Source: Pseudisothecium myosuroides (taxonomy: Eukaryota; Streptophyta; Bryopsida; Hypnales; Lembophyllaceae). From it: a DNA stretch of 64,000 nucleotides. Shown piece after piece: positions 14,331-62,800 of the stretch; position 1 is the stretch's first letter, and each line of letters starts with the position of its first letter. The notes beneath the pieces were generated by a model that was not told the origin of the DNA, did not search any database, and was given only the letters and a program-made list of their open reading frames with translations. Location: assembly GCA_951799445.1 (NCBI GenBank), contig OX637293.1, positions 19,406,001 through 19,470,000 on the forward strand, given 5' to 3'. Position numbers and translations under genes: made by a program.

Positions 14331-14338
14331 GATTGCAG

Positions 14339-14614
14339 CAGGGCTTTTTTTTGGCTTTCTAGTGCAGATTGCACCAGAAAATAATAATTTGGCTAGAAAA
14401 TGATGACAAACTGTGAAGTTTTTTGCCATAAAATTTCAAACTAAAAGAAAATCTAGGATGAAATTGCCAGATTGTAGATGAAAATATAAATATGGATATG
14501 TGATATGTGCTAATGTGATATTTTTGTAGATGAATGTTGAAATTTGGAACACCACCATAACATTTTATATCGCCATTTTGGCACTTCATAAAAAATGAAA
14601 AAAAACACAAACTG
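14339..14614. mobile_element. hAT-like MITE with perfect 8-bp target duplication
   Basis: The element starts CAGGGCTTTTTTTT and ends AAAAAAAACACAAACTG. It is flanked by identical GATTGCAG at 14331-14338 and 14615-14622. CAG-starting short imperfect inverted ends plus 8-bp duplications are the hAT superfamily signature. The 276-bp interior aligns with the element in CFAP70 intron 1 (33852-34205): CTAGGATGAAATTG/TTGGATAGAATCG, GTGATAT..GCTAAT, CACTTCATAAAAAATGA. No transposase is encoded. Confidence 0.85.
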
Positions 14615-14622
14615 GATTGCAG

Positions 14623-26477: not shown

Positions 26478-27017
26478 CATGCAATGACAACTTAAAAAGT
26501 TCATAACTACATATGTTGGTAGATTTTGAATATCTTTTTTAGTATCATTTTTTGACCTTGATGTTTGGCACACACATTATTAACATACAATTGATCTCAC
26601 GACAAAAATTTCTTGGTAAATAAACAATTTTTCAATCCTTGGGATAGTGTCAAAGTTGGTAGTAGAAAAAATGTTTCTCAAAACTACACATGTTGGTAGA
26701 TTTCAAATATCTTTTTTTTTTGTGAATCTTTTGACCTTGAAATTTGGCACACATGTTATCAACATAGAAATGACCCCGTCCCAAAAATCTCATGGTAAAA
26801 AAAATAAATTTCAGCCCTTGCGAGGGTGTCAAAGTTGGCAGTAGTGAAAATTTTCTCACAGCTACACATGTTGGTAGATTTCAAATATCTTTTTTTGAGT
26901 GAATCTTTTGACCTTGAAATTTGACACATGTATTATTAACATTGAGATGATCTTGTACCAAAATTTTCATGATAAAAGAACAAATTTTCAGCCCTTGAGA
27001 GGGTGTCAAAGTTGGTC
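26478..27017. repeat. Tandem repeat, ~178-bp unit, 3 copies
   Basis: The landmark ATGTTGGTAGATTT recurs at about 26513, 26690 and 26868. Each unit also contains TTTTGACCTTGA..TTTG and ends with GTGTCAAAGTTGG. It is a satellite-like array too short to suggest a function. Confidence 0.85.
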
Positions 27018-32892: not shown

Positions 32893-35800
32893 ATGGCGCC
32901 CAAAGCCTCACCCAAAGCCGCTGCAGCTCCCACTCCACCCCCACCAGCGCCCCCAGTGGAAGGCGACCCCCTGGACGAGTACTCCGAAGGCGAGGAAGAA
33001 GACATCCCCAAGTCCAAAATCAAAGTGGAAATCATCTCCGCCACCGCCGTCTGGGCCATCGAATCCAGCGAGGAGAAGTCCAAAATCGCATTCGACATCC
33101 AGTTCCCTGACGAGCCTCCTCCACCCCCACCCGACCCCACAACACCCCCGGTCGAGATTCCATCTTTCCTCCCCGAAATCGAACCAATTCCCAAAGGAGT
33201 CTGGCCACTTCCTCCACCACCACCACCACCACCGCCGCCAACAGACCCTGTATCCCCACCCACAACAGATCCTGCATCCCCAGACCCTGCATCCCGACCT
33301 GCGAATTTCAAATTCTCTTTTGTCCGAGAATTCGAGCGCACCCCCTCTTACCTCCTCTGCAACAAACTCGTGCAAGAGCCCATGTTGATCACAGCCCACT
33401 GGATCTCCCCCTCGGGCTCTTCCAAAGCTCCCATCGCCACAGCCCAAGTGAACCTCGCGGAGTTGCTTCACTTGCACCAGTGCACCTTAACCACAGTCTC
33501 CCCACTCACGCCTTACATTGAGCCTCCCGTTACGGTTAAGGCTCCGTCTCCAACGCCATCATCAGGGAAAGGGGGCAAGAAGGCAGCAGCGAAGGCAGCA
33601 GCGAAGGCGGCACCTCCACCACCAGCGGCAGGGAAGAAAGGCGCCGTTGTGGCGGCAGGAGCTCCAGTGTCGGTGACGGAGCCGAAGCCTGCGCTGTTGG
33701 AGGGCGCGAGCGTGACGGTGCTGATGACGACGAGTGAGCCGCTCGTGACGGAAGCGGATCGCAAGCACGGGTTTGTTATTGAAGTGGATGTTGTGACCAT
33801 CCGTGAGCTGCCGCCCAAGGTGCAGGAGCTCGGGAGGGAGCCTGTGCAGGCCAGTGCTTTTTTTTTTTTTTTTTTTAATAAATTATAATTTATAATTTAT
33901 AATTTTATTTATTTTAATAAATTTGTCGGCCATTTGCACTAAAATAATGGGCCCTGCACTATGCCCTTGGAAAAAAATAGTACTGAAAGAGTGGAAAATT
34001 GCCGGAAAATTTCAAATTAGAAGAAAATTTTGGATAGAATCGCTAGATTGTGGATGAAAATAGAATTATGGATTTGTGATATATGCTAATATATGTGATA
34101 TTTTCTATCTAATAAGTGGATGAATCTTGGAATTTGGAGCACCACTAATAGCATTTAATATCACCACTTTTGCACTTCATAAAAAATGAGAAAAAAAGCA
34201 CCCTGGTGCAGGTGTTTGGATTTACCGTGGGGTTTACGATTCCGGGGTTTAGTGCAGACTCGGCTTGGTGGAATGCGGTGAATGAGATGGATGTGGAGGC
34301 GAAGAAGGTGTTTGGGGAGTTCCGGGCGATTGGGGGGACGGTGATGCAAGAGGAGGTGACAGTGTCCAAAGTGCAGGTAAGGTAGAAGCACCAATTCTTG
34401 TCCGTTTAAGAAATTCAGCATAGTTGGAGGCACTTTTTGTAGCATTGGCAATTGAAAATCGTGAATTTTCAAAAACAAAGTTAGAATTTTTGGATAAGGC
34501 ATCTATTTTCTGTGAATTTTCAAAGTAGGACTTTGTAGGGCACCTCAAACCGTACTCTCGTCACGGCTATCTAGATTCTGACACGATAATCTAAAAAAAT
34601 CAACAAGCACCAACCACAATTAAGCATTGGTACAGTTTTGAAGTACTTTAGCGGACACTTTTGAGAGGAGTTTACAGTAAAACAATGAATACATGAATGG
34701 GAATGGATGCTCCTACTTTAAGGTAGTCCTACAATTTTCAGCTGTAAACTTTTGTAGGAAGAAAAATGGAATTGGCATCTAACCCAAGTCGTTTTATATT
34801 CTTTGGACCTTCGTGGAATTAGTTACAAATTTTTAAAATCAAAACACAATGGTCATCGAAAGCGACAACCTCCTGAAATGTACACTATTGGTACATTGAA
34901 GAAAGTAAAGTGTACCTCTATATCATGATCGCTTTTAGGGCACCACTACCGTATCTAACTTCTAACTTAGTCCCAAAGTCCCGACGGGGGACTATTGGGA
35001 TTTTAGTTAGGCTTGTGTGATCTCAATTTTTTACCTCATTTTTTGAATTTTTTTCGAAGATAGGAAATTAGATTAGATTGCTATCAATATTTGACTTACA
35101 TTTTACTTTGCAAATAAAAAATAAAAAATAACAAAATACTACTATTCGTACTAGACCTAAACTATACAAAATTCTGCCCCCACCCCCATCCTTATACTTA
35201 CAATCTACTTAGAGTAAACATGCCAATTACTGCACAGACTCAAAAAATGGACAACAGCTGTTGACATTTACTGTACAACAACCGCACAATTCAACTATTG
35301 ATTCAATTGCAATGGGAACAAGATTTTGTATCACCACCCAATGACTGCACATTGTGCGGTAAAGGGTACAAGGAATTTTAACTAGAGTTCAGCTTTATTG
35401 CCTTTAAATTGCAATACAATTTGTAGGAAGAAATCTTTTTGCATTCTACCTTTTGAAGGTGAATCTTAACTTGACATTTGATAATCACGCCAAATTTCAA
35501 AATATGCAAGTCTCTATATTTATATGAAGAAGGTTTTGAATTTTGTTTGTCCGGTGATTGGCATGTTTAATCTACTAACTTCTTTAACCCCTTCCACCAA
35601 AACAATCCATCTCCCCCTCATTAGTTCTAAATGTGAAACCTACTTTTTAAAACTAGAAAAGAGTCTTGCTTTTAACAAAGGTATGTAGCATAAATGTCAC
35701 TAATACTAACTTCTTGAATTGAACAAATTCTCCATTAATTCCAATCCTTTATGGTGATTGGAGTTTCTCTCTTTTTCTTTGCAAGTCAATGTTTGAGAAT

Positions 35801-38800
35801 TTTTTTGAGCTTGAGGTAACTAAACCTAATTGTGGCCTCTTCCTAAAACCGGGCTCTACAAATTCTTGCCTAAAACGTATTCCCGATGTTCATGAGAGTC
35901 TAGGGTCTATCTTAGAAATGCCTTTTTTTTCAACAGTTTCAAAATACATAGGTTATTTATGTAGTGTCCAATAAAATAGAACCTAGAATACTCTTTTGAC
36001 TTCCAACAAAATCCAACCAAAAATGAGGCTATTGAATAATAAGAATAATGCTCAATTATTTATTCAAAAATTACTTTAGAGACTCCATTGACCATATATA
36101 TGAACTTTGATTTGTGATGAGAGTGAAATACTTAATATATTGAAATTTGTGATTGATTTTGAGCTTAACACATAAAAATATGTGCAAAATTTTAGATGGT
36201 GCAATTGTTTAGATTGTCGTTGAAAAATATTTAAGTTTCACTAGAGCGATAAATGGATACCTTCCTTTATTGTATATTGAATGGAGATTTTATAATTCAT
36301 GGATCTCACCAATGGAAAAAAAATTTGAATGTAAAACTTTTGATATGTGTTTTTCATAAAAATAAGATAAAAAATTTCAATTGATTTCAGTTTTTAATTT
36401 TTAATTTTTAATTTCTCAAAACATCTTCATCTAAAGGTAGATATGTGTTTTTGATGCTCAAAATGCAAAAGAGTCTTAGGGACTAATTAACCAAATCCTT
36501 GTCCATTTTAAAAAAAACTCTTTTCTAATAAGGCAAGGTATATCATTGAAGATAAAATGGGGGGATCTCCATTATAGATACTTTTGACAATGTAATTCAA
36601 AATACTTTATTCTTACTAGTTATTTTCCTTCAATTCCCATATTCATCCATTTTTTCAAGTATCCATTCTAGTGAATTTTTCTATTATAATAAATAGATTT
36701 TTTTTTAAAATTGGTGGATTTATTTTTGTGCTTTTAAAATCCAATCCAACTAGTTATTATTTCACTTTCATATACTTATTTTGTATTAATTAGCAAAAAT
36801 TTTCCAAATTCTTCTGTAGATGGGCGTAGATGAGAGCATGGGGCCGCGAGAGCTGAAGAAGTTGTTGTTTGGAGGGGAGGAGGTAAAGCCAGATTGTAGG
36901 ATTGAGAAGCTGGAGGTAGATGAATGGGGGTACCCACCCTCAATAAAGGAAAAGGAAATGCGGAATGTGGTCGTATGGAATGCAAGTGGGGTGAAGAGAT
37001 ATTTGCCGGGGCAAGCGGCCAATGAAGTGAGGGCAATAGATTGTAGATTGAGATTTTAGACCTAATATACACGGATTTTAGATATATACTTGTAGCAATG
37101 CATGAGAGAATGTGTGTTTGTATATATATATATATATATATATATAATTTGATGATAAATCAAGTATCCAACATGTTGTAATCTCTAGAATCTTTCTTTG
37201 CATTTTTTACATCTTGAATTCAAAATTTTAGATAAGGAAGCCCATGGCATCAATCTTTTCAATAGCTTTCACATAGACATTTGTGAACAAGGAATAGTAA
37301 ATTGTTGTTGCACACCTTGTTCAACAACATCAAGTGAATCCAAACTATATCTTGTTCTTTTTTAATATTTGTTAAATAAACAATAAGATAAATGGATGCA
37401 CTTATAGGAGAAACTTTGAATATAGGTAAGGGAGAATATCAAGCGGAAGAAACACATACAAGGTGCAGTGGCGCGGTATGTGACAGATGAGAGCTTCAAT
37501 AATGTCATTGATCCCTTTTTCCAGCGGTACCGGAGCACATTTGACCTAGACTTGATGCCCTTCCTTGACCATGAAGGGACCTTGTCTATTTCCATTCTAT
37601 GTCCATTGGGGGACTTTGTCGAAGCAACTGGCAATGCTTTCTGCCCTCCCGATGCTCGACCTCCTAGCAAGTCTGCAAATGTTGTAGAAGATGATAGTGG
37701 ACCTCTTCCTGTCCCTCTAGCTGCAACAAAAGGTGCACCACCTCCACCTCTGCTTCCGTCGTTGCCCAATGCATGGAAGGAAGCAAAGTCTGTGATTTAT
37801 GTGACTATTAAAACAAGCACACCTATTGAGCCAATGTGGATTCCCCCTCCGGAACCCGAGCTCAAAGTGGAGAACCTCATTCCACCTAGACCAAAATGTC
37901 CAAATTTGCATGACTCTGTGAAAGTTGCAACTGAGAAATTTAAGGAGTTTGTTCAGGTTGCTGCGCATGACATTTCCTTCCTTCATCAAAAAATGTTGCA
38001 AGGAGAAGAAATTGCACCATTGGGAACCGATGCTACTTCGGATACCAAGTCTAGGTATTTAATTACTATTAAAGTCAAATAATAGGAGTGTTAGAGTGCA
38101 AGACTTCAAAACTCCAAAAATTAAAATTCTCTTACATTTTCAAAATAGATAAGACTTCAACCTCTAAAAGCCTCCAAAGCCCAAAGTACACCTTCTAATT
38201 TATAGAGTAGTTTTCAATTTATATTGAAATTTCTATTTGTCCAATTTTATTTCTCTTACCATCAATACATGCAATGTTCTTTTTTGATTCTAGAGGATGG
38301 ATATTAATATCATTTGGATCATATTATTCAAAATTAAATAAAATAGAGTAGTCATAATAAATTAAAAATAATTTATCTTTTAGGCATTAAAACCATCCAA
38401 AGTATACTTCAAAACAATCATTTAATTAGATTTCATGATAATTCTTATACAAAACTCTTCAAAATTTTCAAACAAGACTTATAATATATATCTTCCTCAA
38501 GGGCCATTCCAATTATTCATCAAGTGAAGGCGGCAAAGTTTGGAAATGAAAGAGCCTCCAAATTTTTTAGAGGCAAACAAAATCAATGACTTGCAACCTA
38601 TGGAGATCTTTGCAAGTTATACATGAGAGCCTATGTAATTCAACATACAATCTATCACAAGGTTGTCAGCTCCCTAATTTGGATTTCATCATTATTATCC
38701 ATGTCTTCCAATGATAGTACCCAAAAGCATTGGGGTTATATTAGTACAAAAAAATTGTTATTGCACAAGTGAGTAGTGTGAACTCATCATAGATAGTGAG

Positions 38801-41800
38801 TATAAATGAGCAATTGGGATGGCCTTTAAATTTGAATTTGTATATACCAAGAGACAAATCAAGTTACTAGAGGTATTGTGTTTTGTGATCTAGAATTCAA
38901 AGCAAACAAGATGTGAGAAGAAAAGTGGTATTAGAGTTGCACCAATCTGGCGCATGGCACCAAATGCGTGATGAAATGAAGAGCCGAGTACTTCAAATTG
39001 CAGCGGAAAAGTTTAGACTTGGATCCAAAGAAGCCATTACTTCCGGCAAGTTTGAATTTTGCAATGCATTGTATGTAAAGCTGATGGAAGAAATCCATGC
39101 CTGCCTTGCAGAAATGTTCCTCAAGGTTGACATTATTATTAGTGTCTTGAATTGTCTAATGTCCCATGTTTAGTTACTAGCCATATCATTCATATCAAAG
39201 ATGAATCTTTTAAACTCTTAGAGTACAATAAAAACTTTTAAAATTTTAGAGTCAAAATAGCCCTATAGTTTCTTCAATTTCAACCATCCATCCTAGTAGA
39301 GGTGAAATATGTGAATGTATCAATAGTGTTGCTAATCATCATATTTTTCCTTGATTTCAAATACTAAAGAAGTCCTCTTGTGTTGCATTCTAAAATATTT
39401 TCTAGCTAAATCTAAATGAGTATTTGGCCCCAACAATTGTAATACATGTGTATGCAGAGACAAAATATATCCAATGCTTTGGAAGGACACATCTGCATAG
39501 AGTTGAGTAAAAAAGAAAAAAGACTAATTCTTCTTCGGCAACTTGCAAATGAATATGAGGTAGGTGATTTAATAACCTTTGGTATGTAACTAATTTGAAG
39601 AGACTAGCTATTTTGAATAATTTTTAAAGGAATAGAAGATCTTTAGGAAGAAATTCAATATATTAAGGATTATTTCTTTGAAGTTTGATGCTCTTATCCC
39701 CAAAGACAAAGGGTGTTTTTTAAGAAAAATTATTGAAAATTGCCAATTTTTGGTGCATTGACCGAATTTGAAATTTGAAATTTTTATTTGGAATTCCAAT
39801 TGTAGAAAAATATATTAGACCATTATGTAAATATGTTGAAATTTTTTAATCCCATTTGACAAATGGGATTCCAAGATTGTAACATTTGAAGTTTGAAATA
39901 ACATTTGTTTTTGATCTTGTGAGATAGAAACATGAGACTTCAAGCCCTCTTAAATTAAAATTTTCTCGAACACAAAAATGCAAATTCATAACATCCACTA
40001 ATACATCTTATTAGGTAATAGGTACAATCATGCAAAATTTTAGAATCCATAATATACCTAATTTATTCTAAATCACTATGTTGGGCTAGGAAGTCAAATA
40101 ATTCAGTAATACACTTGTAATTTTTTGATAATTTCTTATGCATTGGAGAATTTATTTGTTTGAAATTTGAATGGTAAAAACACTGAGACAAACCTTTAAA
40201 ATATATGAAGAAATTTCAAAATCTTTGACTTCACAGATTGTAGGATTATAGCATTTGGAATTAAAAGAATGTTTGTTTGTTTTCAAAATTTTCTAGCATA
40301 GTCAACAAAGTTTGACTCTTCTTGGTGTGTGATTTAAAATATTATTAATTTTTTTCTTGACAGTTTCATACTATATTATGTTATATTTCAAAAGTAAATG
40401 AAGGGGTTATCAAAAGATTTCTAAATTGTCCATACTAACTAAATTTTTTAAGCAATATAACTTTTTACTTCAATTGGGCATCCAACTGAATCATTTTTTC
40501 TTTTGGCAAAGGTCATTTGTATATACACTTTAAGTCAATTTTCAAGAATATCCATTCAAAATTGACTATGTAGGAATTGACCCAAACATTCAATTGTAAG
40601 TTCAACAGACAATTGTCCTTTAGGGAATAAGGGTTAATTCCTAATATTCATTCATGTTTAGAGACCCTAAACTACTTCAATATACTAGTCTCTAAAGCAA
40701 GGGTAAAGTCTTCATTTAGATTTACTTTTAAAAAAAATCCAACCATAAAATCCTTTAGTTAATTTGTTAGAATACATCCTCCTAAAATTTTAGAATAAAA
40801 AACCTTACCAATTGCAAGATCATGATGCTTGGACTTCAAAAAAAAGTATTTTCAGCTCTTCCTAAATGGTTAGATTTTATCTTTCAAATTTTCTATACAA
40901 AAATACAAAGATCCTATAACTGCTAATTCTCCATAATATGTTGAAAAAAGAAGTTGGAAATATATATAAAAAATTCAACAAAATACATCTCATATTCTTT
41001 TTGCAAAAAAATAGTAAAGAGAAAGAAGTAGAGAATGATTTATAATATAAAATTGTTAAGAATTTACAGTAACAAATGAAACTGAGTACTATTGTGAAAC
41101 ATTTTCATTCAAACAACCATACCGTAAGCATCAATGGACAAAGTCCAAAAGTGTATATACGAAAGTTGTAGTGTACGACATGCTACACATTACCATGGAA
41201 GTTTGAAGAAAAAATAGTTGTGATTTGAAAGAAAATCAATTTCAAAGTTAGCCATGTCTAAAACTCAGTTTTGTTCAACATGATTTGGAATTCTTTTATT
41301 TTTGTCAATTTATTTTTAGAAATCCAAAAAAAAAATTTTGTGCCTTGGCATGTTGGTATACATCATTTCAAATTGTTTTATCCAAAAATTGAAGGAAATT
41401 GCCATTTATAGAATTTAAAACACCAATAGTTTGACAAACATACAAATGATGTTTGTTCTTACAATATTTGATTTTTTTTGGAATTGAGAGCGTGGGATAG
41501 CATTAGCCATTGTAGAAAGAGCATAGGTTGCAATATGGACCATTTTTACATCTTCATGCCTTTGCATTTGAAATATTTGTTGAATTTGACAATGCATTCA
41601 ATTTATATTTCACAATTGTATAATGCGTTTTTAAATTCAACTTCTTTTGTCCAAAGACTAGAGTTCATGATGCACATAATTGATCCAACAAATCTCAAAA
41701 AAAAATTATCATTGTCAATATCATCAAAAAACTGAAAATTGCCAAAAATTATATTGACCCTCATCAAATTTTCAGTTTTTTGATGATATTGACAATGATA

Positions 41801-43569
41801 ATTTTTTTTTGAGATTTGTTGGATCAATTATGTGCATCATGAACTCTAGTCTTTGGACAAAAGAAGTTGAATTTAAAAACGCATTATACAATTGTGAAAT
41901 ATAAATTGAATGCATTGTCAAATTCAACAAATATTTCAAATGCAAAGGCATGAAGATGTAAAAATGGTCCATATTGCAACCTATGCTCTCTCTACAATGG
42001 CTAATGCTATCCCACGCTCTCAATTCCAAAAAAAATCAAATATTGTAAGAACAAACATCATTTGTATGTTTGTCAAACTATTGGTGTTTTAAATTCTATA
42101 AATGGCAATTTCCTTCAATTTTTGGATAAAACAATTTGAAATGATGTATACCAACATGCCAAGGCACAAAAGGTTTTTTCGGATTTCTAAAAAAAAATTG
42201 ACAAAAATAAAAGAATTCCAAATCATGTTGAACAAAACTAAGTTTTAGACATGGCTAACTTTGAAATTGATTTTCTTTCAAATCACAATTATTTTTTTCT
42301 TCAAACTTCCATGGTAATGTGCAGCATGTCGTACACTAAAACTTTTGTATATACACTTTTGGACTTTGTCCATTGATGCTTACGGTATGGTTGTTTGAAT
42401 GAAAACGTTTCACAATAATACTTGGTTTCATTTGTCATTGTAGTTATAGAATTGAAAAATTCCAATCCCAATGGTTGTAATGTCATATTGTAATAATCAA
42501 TCTACATCCTGTGATTTTATTTTTTTCCAAAAATATTGAAAATTGACTTAAATAAAGGACTTAAAAGGATTTTTTAGAGTAGAAATTCCATAATATCTTG
42601 CAAACTAAAACTCCTCATAACTTTCATCTCATTAATCAAAATGGAATAATTCAACGCATTCCACATGTATACAAATTTTGGAAAACCAATTTCAAATTTT
42701 TATTTAAAATAAGAAAAAAAATTCTAAGCTATCCAAGTTGCCCAAACTTCAAATGAAACTAAATATCATACAATAATTTCTTAACAATGTAATCAAAATT
42801 TATAACAATTGTTGTGCCTTAAAGCTACTCCTTGTCTACATATTGTGCAAAAATTCTAAAGAAAAATAAATAAAAAATTTGTTCATAAATGGATGACCAA
42901 AAACGCTATGTTGCCAAAAATGCTACTTGGTCTTTTAGAAGTTAATGTACACAAATTCTCCAAATTACAAACTCTTTAGAACAAAACAAACAAGATTTAA
43001 AAAAGGCTAGAATGGTTGGTTTTTCTGGATCTGATAACAAATTTACAAAACAAGGGTCCCTTAGGAGATTGACCTCATCGACCTTTGGTTCTAATAAGTA
43101 CAAATAGGGCTTTGTTTCAATCATTTTTTATAATACAATGGATGTACCCTTATGGCATAGCAAGTCCTTTATAACACTTATGTCAACAGAAACAAAAATC
43201 AATTGACAAAATTTTATAAAAAATAAGTAAAATTGTTGTTATTTCTCAAATCTTTGCAATGAATAAAAAAATTAAAATACCTTACCAAGAATCCTTTGCT
43301 CTCTCTTTTTCTCTTCAGTATGATTGCAACTACAAGACCGCCAATAGATATCACCAAGATAGACTTCTTGGAGAATCCATCTACAGTTCGGACATTTGGT
43401 TTGAATATGGCTGCTTCAACATGCGTGTAAGAATTAATTCCTTGAATCTTTTGATTATATTTAGCTTGATTTCATTCTAATAGAAAGTTTTTATTCTATA
43501 ATAAAAGTAATACAAACATGCTAATTTTAAGTAGGAAAATTCAACTCAAGCACCCAAGCATTTAGACAA

Positions 43570-43607
<38 letters not shown>

Positions 43608-46600
43608 CATAATATAATATTATTTATTTAAATTTTAAAAGCATACACCATAAAAACTCCAAATTTGTATTGGTTTGGAGTCATCTAATAGAAATTAAGA
43701 TAAATTTTAGGATCATGTATTCAAGGACCTATTGTTCAATGAATTTTAGGATTTCAAAATCTATAAGGTATAATGAAGTTGAATTCTAAACAGTAAAAAT
43801 TTCATTTCAAATGAAAAAATGTTTAAAATGAATAAAATATGGACATCTACTATTGCTATAAATCCAAAATCACGCCTTTAATATCATAAGGAGTAAAAAA
43901 TGTAAATCATCTACACATTTGTTAAAGTTTATTTATAAAAGTCAACTACTAATAAAACTTTGCAACTTGATAAATTTTGTTATCTATATCCAAATAATTC
44001 ATTTTAGTACATTTAACACAACTCTCATTTGCTAATAACATCATACAAAAATTTGGCCAATCAAAGAATAGAAACTATGCTCAATGCTATAATGGTGCTC
44101 TTCAATCCCTCTAATACATAATTAGTAGCATTCAAATACCTTTTTCTAAAAGTTAAAAATAATATACAAATATTTGACCTATGCAAAAGTGAAGGTTTGA
44201 GATTCTCTTTTCTAAATTTGTTGAAATATGGCACATTGCATTGTAGACAAAGGAGAAGGGGCGACCAAGAGATCGAGGAAAGGCAGAAGAGTGCTTTCGG
44301 GAGACTCTCACATTAGACAACAAACATTACCTGAGTCTCCTAGCACTAGCTTGCCTTATGTGGCATCGCAATTATTGCATGCAATCTGAAGTTCTCCTTC
44401 GCACAGCCATTGATCTTCATACCGAAGAAGAGTGGCTACCATGGTGCATACTTAGTCAAGTATAGTGACATTTTTCTATACTATATATAGCTAAAATGTA
44501 TTAATTTTAAAGGCAAAAATTAGACAATTATTAGTTACGGAATTTACAGAAAACTGTCTAATATGGTTTTGTGAAATAGATAATTTGACCTTAAAAAAAT
44601 TGCCATTGATGAAATGTACGATACTCAAGGGCAAATTTTTTTCCAAAAAAAAAAATATCCAAAATATATGATTTTTTCTGTCAAAGGATTATAGTTAGAC
44701 AATATTTTATAAATGAATCTATAAATTGGTGCTTGGAATCTACATAGCTATCTATAATTGTTTGATATAGCCAGCAAAATAACTAAAAATGAAAAAACAT
44801 AATTGGTCAGGTGTACAACACCGAGGGACAAAAAGAAAATGAAAAGAGTTGCATCAAAAAAGCAGAGCTCCTATATAAGTCATCACGTGATAATAGAACT
44901 ACTTATACATCCCCAAACATTCTTCTTTCACCTCTCTTACAATTCCCCTTCAGTGTTGGCTATTTGTTTTTGAGAAATAAAACTCTTCACCAAAGTACTG
45001 TCTTTGTCGAGACTAGTTTCTTTCTCTTGGATTTGTACTTGCAAAAAGAAGGGAAACAAATTTTGGATTTAGAATGTGATGTGTTTTCAACTGCTATTGA
45101 CAATAAATGGGCTCAAGCAAAAGCTCATGAACTCAACAAAGAATATACTAAAGCTGAAATCTGGATCAAGGAGAATCTATCTATCACAAGAGAAGAGCCC
45201 ATGTCGTGGTTGTGCTTGGGACGTATACGATATGTCAATCAAAAGTATGAGGAGGCCTTAGAAGCTTATGAGAAGGTTAGATCATGTCACAAGTGATCAT
45301 ACAGACCCTAAACCTCTAAACTTCACAAGATAAAGTTAGGTTTTGAAAAGATATTAATTTGAAACATTAGTGGGCTAATCTAGAATTTATTTATTTTTCC
45401 TCTAGTTTCATTATTACTTTGAATCATGAGATATTTGTATTTCAAATTTAGTAGAACTTAACAAAACTTCGACAATTGATACACCAAATTTTTTTTGCAT
45501 TCTTAATATTTCAATTACATGTTACAAGCAAGTGATCCAAAATAATATCATTTTGGATTCATTTCAATATTTTAAAACTAAAATTAATTTAAATTAAGTT
45601 GGAATATCGCTATTTGAGAGCCTACTTTGAATAAATGAAAAACCTAAATAAATTATAAAAATAAAAGGATATTTAGAAGTTTAACTATATTTTGATACAA
45701 AATACAATGCCTTATAAAATGAAATTAAGGAGATTTGAAAATGACTTTCAAAAATGTAAAACTTGACATTCTTTCAATTTTACTAGTATGTCTTGTGTCA
45801 TTGCCATACTCCTTAGTATGTCATTTGTAGTTGCCACAAAAGTGATGACCAATCCCTTCTTAAATCTCATTTTATACCCAATTTTTGATTTTTTTAAAAC
45901 TTTGAATGCCCAAGGCACCAAATTCTAATGTTGACAAGACTTTGAAGTTAAATAAAATCCAACAAAGTTACTATTTGTAATAGTTTATATATTTGAAAAA
46001 TTCTTTTTGAAGTCTTGTTTTAGCAACAAAAAAACCAATTTTGAAAATGAATGATTATGATTTTTCTGTTTTTGATTTTGTGCAAGGCAGTCCATTGCAA
46101 ATCTTGATTTTCTAGTATTAAAGACTCTTGGAAATGAGCCAATAATACACTAGATCCTGGAGAAAAAATCACATTAGGAATTCATTTAAAAAAAAATTGT
46201 AGAGTAGATTTTGAAAAGTTGTAAATTGATTGGGATTATGCATATCATGCCCTTTAACCTCATATTTTTTTGCTGACCAACTTTTTAGATTTGACATGCA
46301 AAAAGAGGATTGAAAGACTTCAAATCATTTCCACAATTTCATCACCCTCATGATCAAACATTATAATCTTTTGATCCATAAGTGATATTGTCGTGTTTTC
46401 TTTTCCCATGTGATCTCTAATATTTCTAGTTTGAATTTGTACAGTTGCAATTCAGAAAAATTGATAAATCATATCAGAATGTTGTCTTTTGGCACTCTTT
46501 TGGTTCAATTTTGAGCAAATTCCAAGAAGCTCAAAAAAGGCCTTGGGCATTCAAGGATTAAATTGTTTGTGGTACTAATGTTTACTATCATGTGTGATAA

Positions 46601-49459
46601 CAATTTTGAAACTAAGGATTCAAACATGGCATTCAAAATTTGATAAAACTTGACGCTCATTCCATCCTATATTTGCAGCACTTGCGGTACCAAGGAACGC
46701 AAGATGTGTACCCATATGTCTACTTGGACATGGGTAATTGCCACCTTCACCTCGAGAACTACGTTGCAGCCCAAAAAATGTTCCTCAAGCTCTGCCAATC
46801 GACCCCCACAATGAGCTCATGGCTGGGTGTGGGGATCGCCTTCTTCCGCACCTGTGAGTACAAGCATTGTGAGATTGCGTTGGTGGAGGCCAACCACATG
46901 GACAACAAGAATGCCAAAGTGTGGGCGTACTTGACCCTCGTGTGCCTGGCCTTGGAGCGAGTGGAGGAAGCCGAGATCTCGTTCCAACAAGTGCAGAAGG
47001 TGGAACTTTATGATGTGGCGTTGTTGCTCGAACTTGCGGATGGCTTTGCCAAGTGCGGAGACTATCGGTACGAAAGGACTCAAAACCTTATGAGGAGAAG
47101 AAATGAAATTATTCCTTAAACGACATTCACTTGTTCAAAGGGGGAATGAAAAATCTTCTTGAAGGAGGGTATGGGTCTTGTTGCTTGTCCAATTAAAGTT
47201 TTGTGCAGTTAGGGCATGCAATAGTAAATATTGAATGGTGCTTTGATTTTGCAACCTAAATGCGGTGTGTGGCAAGCCATATTCATTATTGAAGTGGATT
47301 CAATAAGGTGAAACATTCCAAAAAAAATACAAAAAATCACTTTTTGTCAACAACTCTCTCAAAATCAAGCATAAGGGATTTAGCTTGTCATTTAAGGATT
47401 AACCTCTAAGCTCTCTAACGTTCAAAAAATTAACAATGAATAGAGAAGTTCTAAGAACTTTTTTTTTTATCACAAAACTTCTCATTCATCCAAAATAGTG
47501 CTTGAGTTTTTTTTAAACTTTTTATATGATGAAATTGATGAATTTGAAGTGAATTATATATATGAAAGATAGAAATAAAAATATACAAAAATTCAAAAAA
47601 GGATTCAGGTGCTAAGGGGTTAAGACTTTGGTCCATCAATACAATAACCCCTAAACACTAGACAGTTGAATTGATTGCAATGAATTGCTAGATTGATTGA
47701 GTGCTTCATGCTTGCTATGACACTCAAGGTAGAGAAAGTGATTACAAATGATTTCAATTGTGCAACATGGGATGAAAGGTCACAATCCAACATCTTCTTG
47801 AAAGTTGCTTGAAATCAATATAATGGCATCACCAAAGATGACACTCACTACTTATATCTATGTGGCAAAGTTTGTATAACTACCTCCAATAAATTGATGT
47901 TACAAATTTTTTATTTGACATCTTACCAAAGTTTGTATCATATTTGAAACTCAAAGCCCCTTCTTGTGTAACTCGGTACCTTTGGCAAGTCTTAGCTTCT
48001 TAATTTCAATTTAATTTAATTCAATTTAATTTCAATTTAAACCATTAAAATGATTAGTTTTGAAGCAAGTCTAAATTAACAAATTATAGATTACAAAATG
48101 TAGTTTTATCCCATTTTGAGGTTCAAGGATAAAATCTAAATTTCACTACATACTATACATCTATGAAGACATACCTTGTCTCGCTCCTTTTGTACCAAAT
48201 ACACAAATAGTACCATGTTGCTTCCAAAATTGGGATTTTTAAATTTTTAGGGATTAAAAAGGTTAATACGTAGGGCAAATAGTATATTTCAACCATTATT
48301 GATAGAAGGTAAATAGTTGAAACTACCACTCCCATCATTATTGATACAATGTAGGTATATTAAATATTTAAAATCTTTGAATAATTTTACTTGTTGGTAT
48401 TCCAAAAATTAAATATCTATACAATTTGAAATATACCCTAGGGTAACTTGACCATGTAATTCACAATTCTAGGGACTTAACCTTTAAAGTCCTTTTCTCC
48501 TTCGAGGACAAAATGGATTTTGGGCAGCCAAGTTCTTATGAGTTTAGCTTTAGGTGATTTAAAAAAAAAAACTTTCTCATAAGATAGAAAAACTTATTAG
48601 AATTTTGTAAGTGTAATTTTATTTCAATTGGTATATGAAAACAAAAGTTATACTGCAACAAGTCCAAAATTAAACTTGGTGGGCAAAAGTAAAAAATCCA
48701 CAGAAACTTGAAACAAAAATTTTAAAAACTTATTTCTTATAGATTGTATTTTTGTTTACATAGAAGCTTTGTTTCTTTAACTTTTATTTTTCCTATATCC
48801 TCAACTCAATTCTTCACGATAATTTTTTTTTTTAATTCAAAATCTACAATGCAAATTTTTAAATTAAGAAGATTCAAAGTCTCATAAACCAATTTGCACA
48901 TATTATGTGATCACACAAACATGCTTTTTTCACTTTGAACGCATTTATCTTGCAATCTTTGTGGTCAAAGTGTTCAAAAAAATTTCTATACATTCTCATG
49001 CTAGTCTACTACAAGATCCTACGGTTAAATATGCCAAAAAAATACCATTTAAATTTGTTTTGCTCTTTGCAATAAAAATGGGAATTTTGAATGATTTTTG
49101 ATTTTTAAAAAACAGACATTGAGACTATAAGTGTTGAAGGTGTTCAAAATCCTGCAGAATCACTGTAAAAATTTGGATGTGTGTGTTGGAATGGATGCAA
49201 ATTTTGCAGAGATGCAGAGGCAGCAACCTTGGATGCATTGAAAGAGGAGGAAGGACAAGTGGTGGCACGATTCAAGTTGGGTGAACTCTATCACCAGCAA
49301 GGGAAACTGGAATGTGCAAAATTGGAGTATGAAAATATCATGAATTTGGAAATAGCGACATGCCCTGAGAAGAATTTGGCCGAAGAACGCTACAACCAAG
49401 TGCAGGCAGACATCATACATTCCAGTAACCCTGTCTCTGATCGCCGTGTAACAATGTGA
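32893..49459 (+). CDS. CFAP70: CFAP70 homologue, cilia- and flagella-associated TPR protein (11 exons)
   Basis: CFAP70 (Chlamydomonas FAP70) is an axonemal protein of the central apparatus/outer-dynein region needed for normal flagellar beating. Exons: 32893-33849, 34212-34376, 36820-37026, 37426-38054, 38903-39125, 39458-39559, 43319-43426, 44247-44459, 44811-45275, 46679-47067 and 49210-49459. All junction phases agree and the total is about 1235 residues (animal proteins are ~1120). The N-terminal part is Pro/Ala-rich with poly-Pro tracts and C2-like segments. The middle part carries the family's charged helical region (exons 4-6). Exons 7-11 form TPR repeats, ending with WLGVGIAFF and KVWAYLTLVCLALERVEEAE, which resemble the animal C-terminus, plus one extra TPR-like unit. 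The ATG at 32893 is chosen because MAPKASPKA begins the GC-rich coding stretch; an in-frame ATG at 32713 exists. Intron 1 uses a GC donor (CAG|GCCAGT) or a weaker GT at 33844. Exons 1, 2 and 10 are GC-rich, while others are AT-rich. Confidence 0.9.
33852..34205. mobile_element. hAT-like MITE forming CFAP70 intron 1
   Basis: It starts CAGTGCTTTTTTTTT and ends AAAAAAAGCACCCTG. It is flanked by GTGCAGGC (33844-33851) and GTGCAGGT (34206-34213), a 7/8 target duplication. The interior matches 14339-14614. Removing the element and one duplicate restores a continuous CFAP70 frame (GAG CCT GTG CAG GTG TTT). The inferred intron (33850-34211) is this element plus ten bases. The duplicate carries the acceptor GTGCAG, and the original left duplicate would have given CAG|GTCAGT, a consensus donor. 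Confidence 0.8.
34377..36819. other. CFAP70 intron 2: repeat relics, otherwise nothing
   Basis: 34721-34950 is a degenerate AGGTAGG-family MITE with TA at 34719-34720. 34965-35100 resembles the terminal part of family C (CCCAAAGTCCCGACGGGGGAC). The rest is AT-rich intron. Confidence 0.6.
37118..37146. repeat. (TA)n microsatellite in CFAP70 intron 3
   Basis: Uninterrupted TA run of about 28 bp. Confidence 0.9.
39695..40632. mobile_element. Degenerate TTAA-type element in CFAP70 intron 6
   Basis: The left end resembles TTATCCCCAAAGACAAAGGG; the right end reads TTTAGGGAATAAGGG followed by TTAA at 40633-40636. The length is close to the ~0.93 kb of families A and C. Blocks such as CATGAGACTTCAAG..CTCTTAAATTAAAATTTTC recall family C. 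The assignment is tentative. Confidence 0.4.
40637..42941 (-). mobile_element. Family A element carrying a large palindromic insertion (CFAP70 intron 6)
   Basis: TTAA lies at 40633-40636 and 42942-42945. The right end is TACTTGGTCTTTTAGAAG. 40735-41070 and 42437-42941 match the two parts of the reverse-oriented family A copy at 1-918, for example AGAAAGAAGTAGAGAATGAT on the left and ATAATCAATCTACATCCTGT on the right. Without the palindrome the element would be about 940 bp, the family A length. The insertion point corresponds to about position 425 of the window. Confidence 0.65.
41072..42435. repeat. 1.36-kb near-perfect palindrome
   Basis: Arms of about 665 bp run from ACAAATGAAAC at 41072 to GTTTCATTTGT ending at 42435. 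A ~28-bp spacer is centred near 41754. An identical 85-codon ORF appears on + in the left arm and - in the right arm, showing how similar the arms are. That ORF has no recognised domain and is not called as a gene. The palindrome interrupts a family A element. Confidence 0.9.
43569..43608. repeat. (GT)n(AT)n microsatellite in CFAP70 intron 7
   Basis: A short GT run followed by a TA run, 143 bp downstream of exon 7. Confidence 0.9.
45898..46557 (+). mobile_element. Family D TTAA-type element in CFAP70 intron 9
   Basis: TTAA lies at 45894-45897 and 46558-46561. The ends contain GAATGCCCAAGGCACCAAA and GGCCTTGGGCATTCAAGG. It aligns over its length with 25403-26055 in the same orientation, with the intact TTAA pair giving the boundaries. 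It ends 117 bp before exon 10. Confidence 0.7.
47403..47619. mobile_element. Short TTAA-flanked MITE, family E (CFAP70 intron 10)
   Basis: TTAA lies at 47399-47402 and 47620-47623. The ends CCTCTAAGCTC and GGTGCTAAGGGG are inverted repeats resembling the CCCCTAAAG termini of the other families. It is 217 bp long. Confidence 0.5.
48481..49131 (-). mobile_element. Degenerate family C element (CFAP70 intron 10)
   Basis: It begins after TTAA 48477-48480 with CCTTTAAAGTCCTTTTCTCC and shares GGATTTTGGGCAG with 17831-18738. The right end is eroded. It stops about 80 bp before exon 11. Confidence 0.5.
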
Positions 49460-53339: not shown

Positions 53340-56300
53340 ATGACGAATCCCATGAGGCGGTTTTACTCGTGGAGTCGCTCGCGGGGGGTGGACGCCGAGG
53401 GCTTGTTGAAATTCGGGAGGCCGCTTTCGGGGAATCTGGATTCGGATTCCAGAGTGATGCGGAGGTCGGCTTCGTTAGGTCAGTGGGGTGACCTAATTGC
53501 CTGAATTAGATGTAAATTGGGCATCAGGGTTCTTTTCTTAGTATTTGAGGTTATGTGGAGACTTCCTTTTGGTCAATTTTGTTTAGTTTTGGACCAATAC
53601 TTGCGATGTTCTTCACCGATTCTAGCGATCTACGATTTGGGCGACTGATTCATTTTATAATACCTTGAATTTTTGGTCTTTTAGAAGTTAACGTGCTAAA
53701 GATCCTCATGCTATAACAAATTGCATTTTCAGTGTTAACCCCAGGGTTTTAGCCCTCGAATTAGGCCTCATATATTTGTAAAGCAGTTTTGAGGTCATCA
53801 CGAAGGAACGTCTTTTAATCCAATTTCATTTGTTTTTTGCACCAATACATTTAATGTGCTTCACTTATTCTGGTGGTATCAAAACTTAGCTCCACTTGAA
53901 TTATATTTGTTCACAGTATGATAATTAAGTCGTTCATTTTAAATTCGTGAATACTTAGTACTTCAGGGGTGAAATGACTGACTATTAGCCGACGGTATCG
54001 GAGTATATCTTAGTAAAGAGAGGAGTAACAAGTGTCTCTTTTCTGGCATTCAGAATCCGGAGAGAGGAAGCGATTGCTGGACACGGAAGCGAAGGTCGCG
54101 CCACTACATGAGAATGCGGATCACATTAGGTCATTGTATTCCCAGCGTATAATGAGTGCTGCTTCTGCTATCGCTTACGGCTTAACAGGACTTCTTATGG
54201 GGTTTGTGAACAAGGTACATATCTCGGTGTGCCTTCTCCATTTGATGATGGTCTGTGAAACATATGAACAGAGTGATGCAGAAATTTCCTTAGATGAAAG
54301 GTAGCAGTCAATGGGTGATTTGTTTTTTTGAACCCCAATCGAGTTCCAAGCTTGTTCTATTTTTGCCATTTTGGCGCCAAAATAGTTAAAATACGGTAGT
54401 TCTGTTGCAATGAGCCAAAGTTTCAACAGGGTATAAATATGTTTAATCTTAACTCAGAGATGTGAGTGGTCACAAAATCACAAGAAATAAGCACATGGAT
54501 TGAATGACTACCCCATTTGGTGTGAAAAAGAATTGGAAACTCAATATAAAACATTGTATGAGTGCTACAATCTACCAAATTGTGTCGAAATGGAGGTAAT
54601 TGCTAACAGATTTGCCTTTTATACTCCTCTCCAAGAACTTTCGAAACAAAATACCGAAAATTGAAGTTGTCCAAAATCAAGCACAATGCGGTTTCTTGAA
54701 AATTCAGACTCTAAAGATTTACAATACACTCTCATAAAATAGCAACTTGGAATATGGACAATTTTTGTTGGAATGGGGATTTGAAATATGACTCTTGATG
54801 TGGTGTTTTTTGGAAACTCTCTTATTGCTTAAACCTGGAAGGACGCTGAGGTTAAAAAGTGGACGATGGATGACTTTCAAGAATGCACCTATTGGTCCAA
54901 AAATCCGATCATTTTTGGCGAAGTACCTTGATGATAGGTCTCGTCCTCTCAGGGTTAAACATATGAACTCAGTTTTCCAAGGTCAAATTTGAACCAGAAG
55001 TCAACTAAGTCAAGTTCTCATAGTTCTTTTCTCATAATTCTTATAATGTGTGACTGTAGAATAGTAGAGTAACCTTGCCAAGATCCTTGCATATTGTTTT
55101 TTCGAAAACATCTGTAAAGCCTTTAGGGATTGATATCTGGTTGAGCATGCTTGAGAATGTTCCTGTCCTCTTGATGCAGGCAGTCTTAATTCAATGGCCG
55201 TATCCGAACTCATTTCTCGCACTACAAATGGTGGCATCCATCATGGTGGTGTACACGATGAAAGCGTGGGGCCTGTCAACTGTGCAACCGTTGCACATGA
55301 AAGCTGCCAGTTCCCTTCTGCCCGTTGTTTTCTTTTACAACACAAATGTCGGTTTTGCTTTAGCAGCTGTGAGGGCCCTGAGTATTCCCGTGTATCATGT
55401 TTTGAAGCGTTTGACACCAGTGATGGTGTTGGTGGGTAAATTCCTCATGGGTGGAGGCACTCCTTCCAAACAAATCACATTGTCTGTGGTTATTGTCGTA
55501 TCAGGTAATCATGTAGCTTCTAAGACTAAACTTTTTATTCGTTTTTCTAATCCACCGAGTCATAGAGGGCTTTGGATGAAAAATGAGGAATTTTGAATTT
55601 GTTTTGATGTACTTTTGGCTAGATCACCTAACCATTTTAGTTGTTGGAATTTTTTTTCTTTGAGGGTGTAAAGTATGTGAATTCAAGGTGTATTAGAAGC
55701 TCTGAGATCGTAGTCTTTTTAGGCCCAATCAAAGTCGTTCCTCTTTACTAAGCTTCCTCTTTACTAAGCTTCATGTATTTGCTTAACTTAATAATATGCT
55801 GAATTGTCCTAATAATACTTTGAATTTTAAAGAACAAAAGAAGGATTTTTGGTATTAGCATTGAAGGAAGGCTTTTTTTGGAGCATCATGGCAGTAGGAG
55901 AATGTGAAGGTTTGATGTTGAACAATTTGCATTGCATCAGGTTGCATTATGGCTGGCTTTGGTGATTTAAGTTTTGACTTGAGGGGTTACTCTGCGGCTC
56001 TCATCAGCTGTGCTTTGCAAACGAGCTATTTACTACTAGTAGAGAGAAGTGGCACGGAGAAAGGTCAGTAAATTTTTTTTCTCAACATTTCGGTTGTGAT
56101 TCACTGCTGGGTAGAGATAAGATTTGGGGTCACTTTAGATTGCACAAGTTGAAGCAACAAGCTTGAGATAACAAGAAATCCTTCATCCTGCTACGTGGAA
56201 GAATCATTATTTGTTGATTTTGCCTTATTTTGTTTAACGTGGATACGTACGTGACTCCTCTGTAGCACTCTGATTTTTTTGAGAGAACAAGGTTTCAAGC

Positions 56301-59873: not shown

Positions 59874-62800
59874 TCATAACACCGAGTATTTTCCAGGTTG
59901 GACTGGCCCTGGAAGTTGAATAGCCGCTGAGGTTGATTCCTCCAGAATGCGTTTCACCTCTGCCTTGGCCTTTTTAACAGAGGCTTCCGTAGGGCCTTCG
60001 ATAAATAGGAAAAGCTTTCGTTCTCCAGGTGCCGGGACCTTTCCGGGTGGGAAATACTGACCTCGGGTGGTGATGGCTGCTCCTGTCCATTCACTAATCT
60101 GCCCCAAAGCATCCTTATGAGTAACTTTCCAGCGTGCGTGCTGGGGGAAGTCATTAATCTCAAGCTCTATCTCGTAACTCTCAGGGGCAACATCTGCTTG
60201 GATCTTCGCCAAGCTGTTTTGAAGGTTGTAAGCAGCTGCCATAGCTGCAGCACGAGCAGCAGCTGGATTTCCATCAGGCAATCCAGTTGTTGCTGATGCG
60301 CCAGCAACCATACCCAACATTGGAGAACCTACATGGCCCATGGCACCTGCCATATTAGCCAGCGCCATTTGATTAGCAATTTGCTGCATATTTGGAACTT
60401 GACCAATATTGGACATGCCCATTGAAGCCATGATCTGTGCCATATTCGGCACCATCGGCATCCCAGGCATTCCAGACATCCCGGGCATCCCAGACATCCC
60501 GGGCATACTCATGCCTGCAAGTCCTGGCACTCCCACGCCAGGGAAGGAGATTCCAGGTAAGGCTTGAGTGGCTGCTTGATTGGCTGCAGCAGCATTAGCC
60601 ATGCTTTGTAAAGCTGCTTGTAGCTGTGGATTACCAGCTATTGCCGGGTTCATTGTTGATGGCAGGCCAGCCTTTGCAGCTGCAGCCAGAGCTGCCGCTT
60701 GCATGTTGGCCACCTGTGACATTTCTCCACCCGCTTTACGAATGCCTTCATCGTCAGATTCTGAGTCCGTTTTGTCATCCTCTTCTTCAAAACCATATTC
60801 TCTGGCTTGGGCTTTCTTTACTGCCTTGAGAGCTTCATCTTCTTCTTCATTAAATTTGAATCCACTTCCTCCATAACCACTTCCATGGGCTTGCTCACTT
60901 CCCTGCTTAACTTTCAGCATAAAATCATCCGCAAGCTTCTTTAAGTCCTCTGGAATTGGCTGCTCTGAAAGTTCTAGTGCCTTCACAAGGTCTGGCGCAT
61001 ACCTCTCCTCCTCTGGAGATATAAAGGTGACTGAACACCCTTTGCGTCCAGCACGGCCTGTGCGGCCCACACGATGCACGTAGTCCTCATAATGATTAGG
61101 AACATCGTAATTTACCACCAGCTCAAGCTCCTTGACGTCCAAACCCCGAGCAGCAATGCTTGTAGCTATCATGAGAGTACATACACTTGTCTTAAAATCT
61201 GTTATGGTAGACTCTCTATCCGTTTGATCTTTGGCCCCATGCAGTGAAAGGCATGGATAACCAGCCTTCAACAGGTCTTTGAACAAGGTGTCACACTTTT
61301 CTTGAGAATGAACGAACACAAGAATTTTTCCTTTCTCGTGCCACTCTCCAAGAAGCTCAAGTAGTCGTAAAAATCGTTCACTCTCCGGCCGAACTTCCAC
61401 AGTCTGCGCAATATCACTGTTCACAACGCTCCGTCCTCCAATCTGAATTTCCACAGGCCTGGTTAAGACTTTGCGAGCAAGAACTTCCACCTGCCTGAAA
61501 AATTCAAGAACACAGTACCTAATCAGTATAAAATAACATGAAAGAAATCTTTTCAAATTTGTTTACAAAACCGGTGCGTACTTATGCTCGAGGAATTATG
61601 AGGATAGCAGCGTATAAGAAGGTTCTGGCTGCATCTGGACTCTAAAATGTAAAAAGTGAACAGGCGACAATGTCTCAACTGCTAACAGTTGGAATCTCAA
61701 TAATCAGACTTGAGTATCTCATCCGTACAAAAAGGCAACAAGTACATAATTATAGAAACAGGTTACTGTGTCTTACCTTGGAAAAGTTGCAGAAAAAAGC
61801 ACAGTCTGCCTGTCTGGCCTCGTGTTCTGGACAATACGAGTTATCTGAGGTTCGAACCCCATGTCGAACATACGATCAGCTTCATCCATAACAAGATAAG
61901 TGACACGCCGCAAATTAGTAATTTTGCCGGCACTTGTACAAAGAATATCGATCATACGGCCAGGTGTGCACACCACAATCTCTGTCCCCCTTTTGAGGTC
62001 GCTGATCTGTTGGGCTACACCTGAACCACCGTATACTGGCACGCATGTCAAACCCACAACCTTAGAGAATTTCCTAATGTCATTATAGATTTGTTGCACA
62101 AGCTCTCTTGTGGGAGCCATAATCAATCCAATTGGCCCATCCCCTTGTTGAAGGGGTGGCTGATCCATGATGTGCCGGAGCATTGGCAGCACAAAGGCTA
62201 ACGTTTTACCAGATCCTGTCTTTGCAATGCCAATACAATCTCTTCCGCTCATAATAATTGGAATAGCCTGGGATTGAATGGGCATTGGCTTCTCGAAGCC
62301 GGCCTTTTTAATTACATCTAAAACTTTGTTATTCAATCCAGTCTGATTCCAAGTCTTCAATGGGCGAGGTGCATCCTTCCCACGAATCTTCAACTCTAAC
62401 TCTTTCCTGTAAGCAGCAGCGTCCTCTTGGGTCATTCGAGATATTTCCTTAACCTCGATGTAAAAGTTTTTACGAAAATTGGGATACTGAATCTTGGAAT
62501 GATCCACGATAGCTAATTTCTCTGCTTTGGTCTTCTTGACCCTCTTCAAAAATTCATCGTCGTCTTCGTCTCCTTCCTTTCCTGCACGCAGAGATCAAGA
62601 TTCACATGTGAGAATGTCCACAAGAAGGAAAAATGGCCAGAAAATAACCTGAATGATAGCACTGAACCACAATCGTGAACTAGAAATCTAAATAATACCA
62701 CTGATGCTGATGATCACACCGACATGATGTGGCTTAACTTATCAAATCCATCAACCTAACACGGAAGAAATATATAGAGAATTACCTTCCCCGTCATCTT

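Follow-up and report, generated by a model that had tools for sequence, protein, structure and literature searches.

A hAT-like MITE in the CFAP70 coding sequence of a moss, probably spliced as intron 1 through its duplicated target site

We describe a hAT-like MITE in the coding sequence of CFAP70, which encodes a flagellar protein, in a 64-kb window of moss DNA (the window being the whole stretch that was analysed). Intron 1 of this gene is probably the insertion of a hAT-type MITE into a coding exon, spliced by way of the duplicated target. The reading draws support from the terminal inverted repeats (TIRs) and target-site duplication (TSD) of the element, a second copy elsewhere in the window, an exact agreement in length and the uninterrupted reading frames of relatives. 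Splicing of intron 1, use of its GC donor and fixation of the intron are what we infer.

The CFAP70 gene and the inserted element

In the corrected model, CFAP70 occupies 32893-49459 on the plus strand and has 11 exons, 1,238 amino acids and a single terminal stop. Of 1,206 positions aligned with P0001, a protein from a transcript-like contig of 4,395 bases of another species, 814 are identical. An intron at 44887-45048 in the first gene model was discarded, the stretch being coding according to P0001. For the TPR part of the gene, CFAP70 9ijj was the top sequence match in the PDB (E 1e-25); FAP70 7n61 also matched this part (E 3e-6), ranked behind three engineered TPR proteins, and a PDB search with the N-terminal part returned one weak, non-specific match only. 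A protein search in which 298 candidates were scored gave two matches, P0139 (646 aa, from an lgn contig of 5,210 bases) and P0140 (634 aa, from a jgi contig of 6,938 bases). The features are as follows, with their basis in brackets.

32893..33849, plus strand: CFAP70 exon 1 (MAPK.. start common to P0139 and P0140)
33844..33851, plus strand: left target-site duplicate GTGCAGGC, with CAG closing exon 1 and GC as predicted 5' splice site
33850..34211, plus strand: predicted CFAP70 intron 1, 362 bp, GC-AG, phase 0 (frame, length and junction homology)
33852..34205, plus strand: hAT-like MITE (11-nt exact inverted repeat; second copy in the window)
34206..34213, plus strand: right target-site duplicate GTGCAGGT, containing GTGCAG as predicted 3' splice acceptor
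34212..34376, plus strand: CFAP70 exon 2 (reading frame and homology)
36820-37026, 37426-38054, 38894-39125, 39458-39559 and 43319-43426, plus strand: CFAP70 exons 3-7 (intact frame)
44247-44459, 44811-45275, 46679-47067 and 49210-49459, plus strand: CFAP70 exons 8-11 (frame intact to the stop at 49459)
14331..14338, plus strand: left duplicate GATTGCAG of the second copy (flank scan)
14339..14614, plus strand: second copy of the MITE family, 276 bp (blastn match, perfect 8-bp duplicates)
14615..14622, plus strand: right duplicate GATTGCAG of the second copy (flank scan)

The element in CFAP70 is 354 bp long, starts with CAGTGC(T)n and ends with GCACCCTG. Its A+T content is 73%, and high A+T is a tendency of plant introns. 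The inverted repeat comprises 11 exact bases, GTGCTTTTTTT (33854 / 34201), lying inside CAG..CTG ends, and the left end is two G shorter than the right (CAG--TGC vs CAGGGTGC). The flanking duplicates GTGCAGGC and GTGCAGGT agree at 7 of 8 positions, the single difference being T/C. CAG..CTG ends and 8-bp duplications are features of hAT elements, whose TIRs are short and begin with CAG or TAG. Here, 8-bp duplications flank both copies (7/8 at CFAP70, 8/8 at the second copy), CAG..CTG ends accompany the 11-nt exact subterminal match, CAGGG.. is present at one end of each copy, and the two copies have different flanks within the 64-kb window. The hAT duplication motif nTnnnnAn, which is a preference and no strict rule, is half matched by each copy: GTGCAGGT carries T at position 2 and G at position 7, and GATTGCAG carries A at both. 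Because of the incomplete motif we use the label hAT-like rather than hAT, and we call the element a MITE because it is short. A plasmid collection searched with the element gave no match.

The second copy starts with CAGGGC(T)8, ends with ..CTG and has a perfect 8-bp duplication; its TIR is weaker than that of the CFAP70 element. A left end at 14375, with 7/8 flanks, had been considered for this copy and was replaced by 14339, which has the perfect duplicate and the CAGGG start. The two copies match at 78.8% over 198 positions in blastn (E 3e-44). Aligned end to end, they are identical at 199 of 272 positions, with the 5' part aligning poorly, and the 73 differences mean that the family is not new. 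A profile built from both copies detected no further copy in the window at a threshold of E 10. No recognised gene surrounds the second copy, in a region where genes were not modelled. As a control for chance, all CAG..CTG pairs in the window lying 150-600 bp apart were scanned for 8-bp flanks matching at 7 positions or more; 3 of 2,381 pairs had such flanks, and these were the CFAP70 element and the second copy, the latter with its two possible left ends. TGCAG is common to both insertion targets (33844-33851 and 14331-14338), and the chance that two random 8-mers of the window share any 5-mer is 0.024. TGCAG makes a good splice acceptor, which hints that a target containing it would hand each insertion a ready 3' splice acceptor.

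Splice sites and reading frame of intron 1

The MITE and one duplicate add up to 354 + 8 = 362 bp, exactly the length of the predicted intron 33850-34211, and their removal leaves ..GAG CCT GTG CAG GTG TTT.. in frame. The original prediction had located the element and its duplicates correctly to the base, had recognised a hAT-like MITE within CFAP70 coding sequence (now backed by TIRs, target duplication and second copy), and had described both this restored frame and an intron equal to the element plus a few bases, all of which agree with our analysis. Its proposal of an introner-type feature, a transposon in coding sequence forming a whole predicted intron, is likewise borne out by the match in length and the restored frame.

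We propose that a hAT-type MITE would have entered the first CFAP70 coding exon at ..GAGCCT[GTGCAGG(T/C)]GTTT.. in this moss lineage, duplicating 8 bp of the target. The 5' splice site would then consist of the left CAG, the following GC (or originally GT) and the CAGT of the element, and the 3' site would be the GTGCAG of the right duplicate. By removing the MITE and one duplicate, the spliceosome would leave mRNA and protein unchanged. That the duplicated target supplies the predicted acceptor and most of the donor had also been claimed beforehand, and the TIRs, the duplicates, the exact length and the frames of relatives all support it.

Three donors keep the frame, namely GC at 33850, GT at 33844 and GT at 33820, with predicted U1 pairing of -5.3, -0.6 and -5.3 kcal/mol, respectively. 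The GC site falls between the extremes of the nine other donors in the final CFAP70 model (-1.6 to -11.5). At the junction the window reads PVQ|VFGFTVGF, as against SVQ|PFAYTVGF in P0140, SIQ|PFAYTVGF in P0139 and VPQ|TFNYTVGF in P0001. All three closest relatives thus carry the Gln for which the duplicated CAG codes, and among the frame-keeping donors only GC retains it; in the alignment, the junction lacks Gln in the two more distant plant homologues compared, P0002 of Calypogeia and P0004 of Adiantum. As the original prediction had favoured, we prefer the GC donor at 33850 over GT at 33844, because of the Gln in the three closest relatives and the stronger U1 pairing (-5.3 vs -0.6).

It is unlikely that the same intron uses one of the other two donors, at the cost of two codons (33844) or ten (33820). 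Both sites are canonical GT and keep the frame, and 33820 equals the GC site in U1 pairing, at -5.3 kcal/mol. The span between the PPK-type and PGF-type motifs measures 22, 22, 22, 20 and 16 residues in five plant homologues, 22 being the value in each of the three closest relatives. In the window, the GC donor gives 19 residues, GT 33844 gives 17, which is inside the 16-22 of the homologues, and GT 33820 leaves only 9. This loop length speaks against 33820, and not decisively against 33844; the latter pairs at only -0.6 and loses the Gln of the closest relatives.

The preferred GC donor also has weak points, since it is GC and carries C at +3, and the pyrimidine tract of the acceptor is poor (6/17 Y, with 2 T; the predicted introns 3 and 8 have 5/17). 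A non-canonical donor and a weak polypyrimidine tract would suit an alternative in which the MITE is an exon insertion spliced poorly or not at all, leaving a truncated 331-aa protein and a loss-of-function or polymorphic allele. With the MITE retained, the frame indeed stops at 33886 after 331 aa, and the 1,238 codons of the 11 exons form an open frame only when intron 1 is taken out. Against such an allele, the modelled exons downstream of the insertion contain no in-frame stop or frameshift. Exons 1, 2, 3 and 4 share 57-68%, 55-58%, 60-78% and 66-75% identity, respectively, with P0001, P0139 and P0140, so that the exons past the insertion do not appear plainly decayed. Provided that the insertion is comparably old, stops would be expected in a dead gene; the family is old (73/272 differences) and the duplicates have already diverged. 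We regard this alternative as improbable.

The T/C difference between the duplicates leaves AGGT to the right of the MITE and AGGC to the left. That the donor was originally GT is an attractive idea, and the hypothetical donor CAG|GTCAGT would pair with U1 at -7.5 kcal/mol; the relatives are silent on an ancestral T or C, because they carry Pro or Thr at this codon. The full CAGGG on the 3' side suggests that GG was likewise lost from the 5' end of the MITE; the first donor would then have been CAG|GTCAGG or CAG|GCCAGG.

The splice-site repeats were also compared across the gene. In register, introns 1-10 show 7, 5, 6, 5, 4, 4, 3, 6, 5 and 4 matches of 8, respectively. The 6/8 of introns 3 and 8 lies within the control of mispaired donor and acceptor contexts of CFAP70, 5 of 90 of which reach 7 or 8 of 8. 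Because mispaired contexts match equally well, the boundary repeat was dropped as proof of duplication in its own right and counts by itself as weak evidence. The insertion reading instead gains its weight from the TIRs, from the existence of a second copy and from a length that agrees exactly (354 + 8 = 362). Two of the 10 CFAP70 introns have exact inverted repeats of at least 7 nt near both ends, of 11 nt in intron 1 and of 7 nt (CATTTTT) in intron 8; the other 8 have none.

Relatives, moss affiliation and other introns of the window

P0139 and P0140 read uninterrupted from the start Met across introns 1, 2 and 3 of the window and end a few codons beyond the donor of intron 4 (..TKSR|Y..), as an unspliced template would. 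It is likely, judging from these frames, that both are genomic DNA of relatives lacking introns 1-3. The jgi frame P0029, which has unrelated residues followed by the last exon of RH42, suggests that the jgi source contains moss-like DNA in unspliced form. On the other side, the length filter of the protein search favours frames that stop early, the P0139 contig also fits, by arithmetic, a transcript retaining intron 4, and two other frames (P0022 and P0024) read across the RH42 intron of the window. P0139 and P0140 could thus be transcripts retaining only intron 4. The gain of intron 1 does not rest on the relatives alone, because the predicted intron consists of element and duplicate only. 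Viral and genome contig scans for relatives of P0140 found none.

It is highly improbable that the MITE filled or replaced an older intron at this site: MITEs are frequent in introns, and the relatives' frames likewise lack introns 2 and 3, so that intron content varies, but without the MITE and one duplicate only coding sequence is left, P0139 and P0140 have no interruption, and a replacement must strike both splice junctions exactly.

Introns 2 (34377-36819) and 3 (37027-37425) are also absent from the frames of P0139 and P0140, and would be either further gains in this lineage or concerted losses in the relatives. Their ends have no exact inverted repeats of at least 7 nt. Dispersed repeats occur in the long CFAP70 introns 2 (at 34735-35090), 6 (39560-43318), 9 (45276-46678) and 10 (47068-49209), with several to about 10 other matches in the window, partly fragmentary.

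The genome had been described as streptophyte-like, and the RH42/PRP5 helicase gene (minus strand, 59.9-62.6 kb) narrows this to a moss. Its C-terminal 328 residues were searched, and among the best 120 of 280 matches identity was 92% to one protein, 87% to Ceratodon purpureus and 88% to Sphagnum compactum (over 42% of the stretch), compared with 55-60% over 93-100% for four liverwort proteins (Calypogeia, Marchantia and two Riccia). P0001, P0139 and P0140 are presumably from mosses as well, because their sequences are far closer to the window than is the liverwort Calypogeia (35%).

The RH42/PRP5 intron at 61495-61776 (minus strand, 282 bp) is absent from frames P0022 and P0024, and P0029 begins with unrelated, intron-like residues at its position. 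Either relatives differ in whether they have this intron or some of the public contigs represent partly spliced RNA. Elsewhere in the window, 26501-27015 is a tandem repeat with a 177-bp unit (2.9 copies, 81% matches), and an open frame at 55060-55596 has a sub-threshold Pfam match to TPT, the triose-phosphate transporter family (25.3 bits, cut-off 30). ARAGORN predicted no tRNAs in the window.

Known transposon-derived introns and meaning of the moss case

The closest parallel is maize Ds, a hAT element that Giroux et al. are said to have described in 1994 as spliced from pre-mRNA as a new intron; Dennis et al. in 1988 and Wessler in 1991 reportedly also treated Ds spliced from pre-mRNA. Removal of Ds with one 8-bp duplicate restores the reading frame and mRNA. 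These cases are recent mutant alleles in which splicing is precise and of low efficiency. As in maize, a hAT-type element lies in a plant exon of the moss, and taking out the element with one 8-bp duplicate restores the frame. Unlike maize, the moss gene looks intact and its element is non-autonomous and probably old; splicing of Ds was shown in RNA, whereas the moss intron is predicted from DNA sequence. The maize En/Spm (CACTA) elements with terminal splice sites, reportedly described by Menssen et al. in 1990, are likewise plant DNA transposons giving new introns. They belong to another superfamily and, judging by the title of that work, their splice sites lie in the element termini and not in the duplicate.

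In the AGGT-duplication model, as outlined in the parts of the article on which we draw, a duplicated AGGT target gives both donor and acceptor and leaves the coding sequence unchanged (PMC3443670). In the same parts, Yenerall and Zhou 2012 describe 35 gains by transposon insertion in Oryza, Drosophila, Oikopleura and Zea (PMC3443670). The moss intron departs from this model in that its left copy now reads AGGC, which gives a GC donor. A plant MITE review mentions, in the portion used here, alternative splicing as well as splice variants of carrot with hAT-like MITEs; the term 'introner' is absent from that portion. None of the literature matches listed, as titles and abstract openings, concerns a MITE-derived intron in a moss, which says little.

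In introners the TSD provides one splice site or both, and some introner families have GC 5' splice sites, according to the excerpted sections of Gozashti et al. 2022 (PMC9860276). The moss element resembles them as a non-autonomous DNA transposon with TSD and TIR whose splice sites would be recruited from the TSD. Introners are families of many similar introns; in the moss one intron is seen, and, unlike in introner families, the sole other copy in the window sits in no recognised gene. There is a small chance that the MITE family is a true land-plant introner, preferring TGCAG targets and making up many introns of this moss; on that doubtful supposition, CFAP70 introns 2 and 3 would be recent gains by the same or sister elements.

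The mechanism as such, although seldom observed, is known from maize Ds, the AGGT-duplication model and algal introners, and what appears to be new is a readable natural case in a moss. The case is notable because, in those same sections, the survey of 3,325 genomes reports no introners in land plants, the two groups with introners among animals and land plants both being animals (PMC9860276). If other introns of this moss are copies of the MITE, the case would be one of a land-plant introner, and otherwise an isolated accident. As a natural hAT-MITE intron whose two duplicates can still be read, and which relatives appear to lack, the moss case would support the transposon route of intron gain outside algae and protists.
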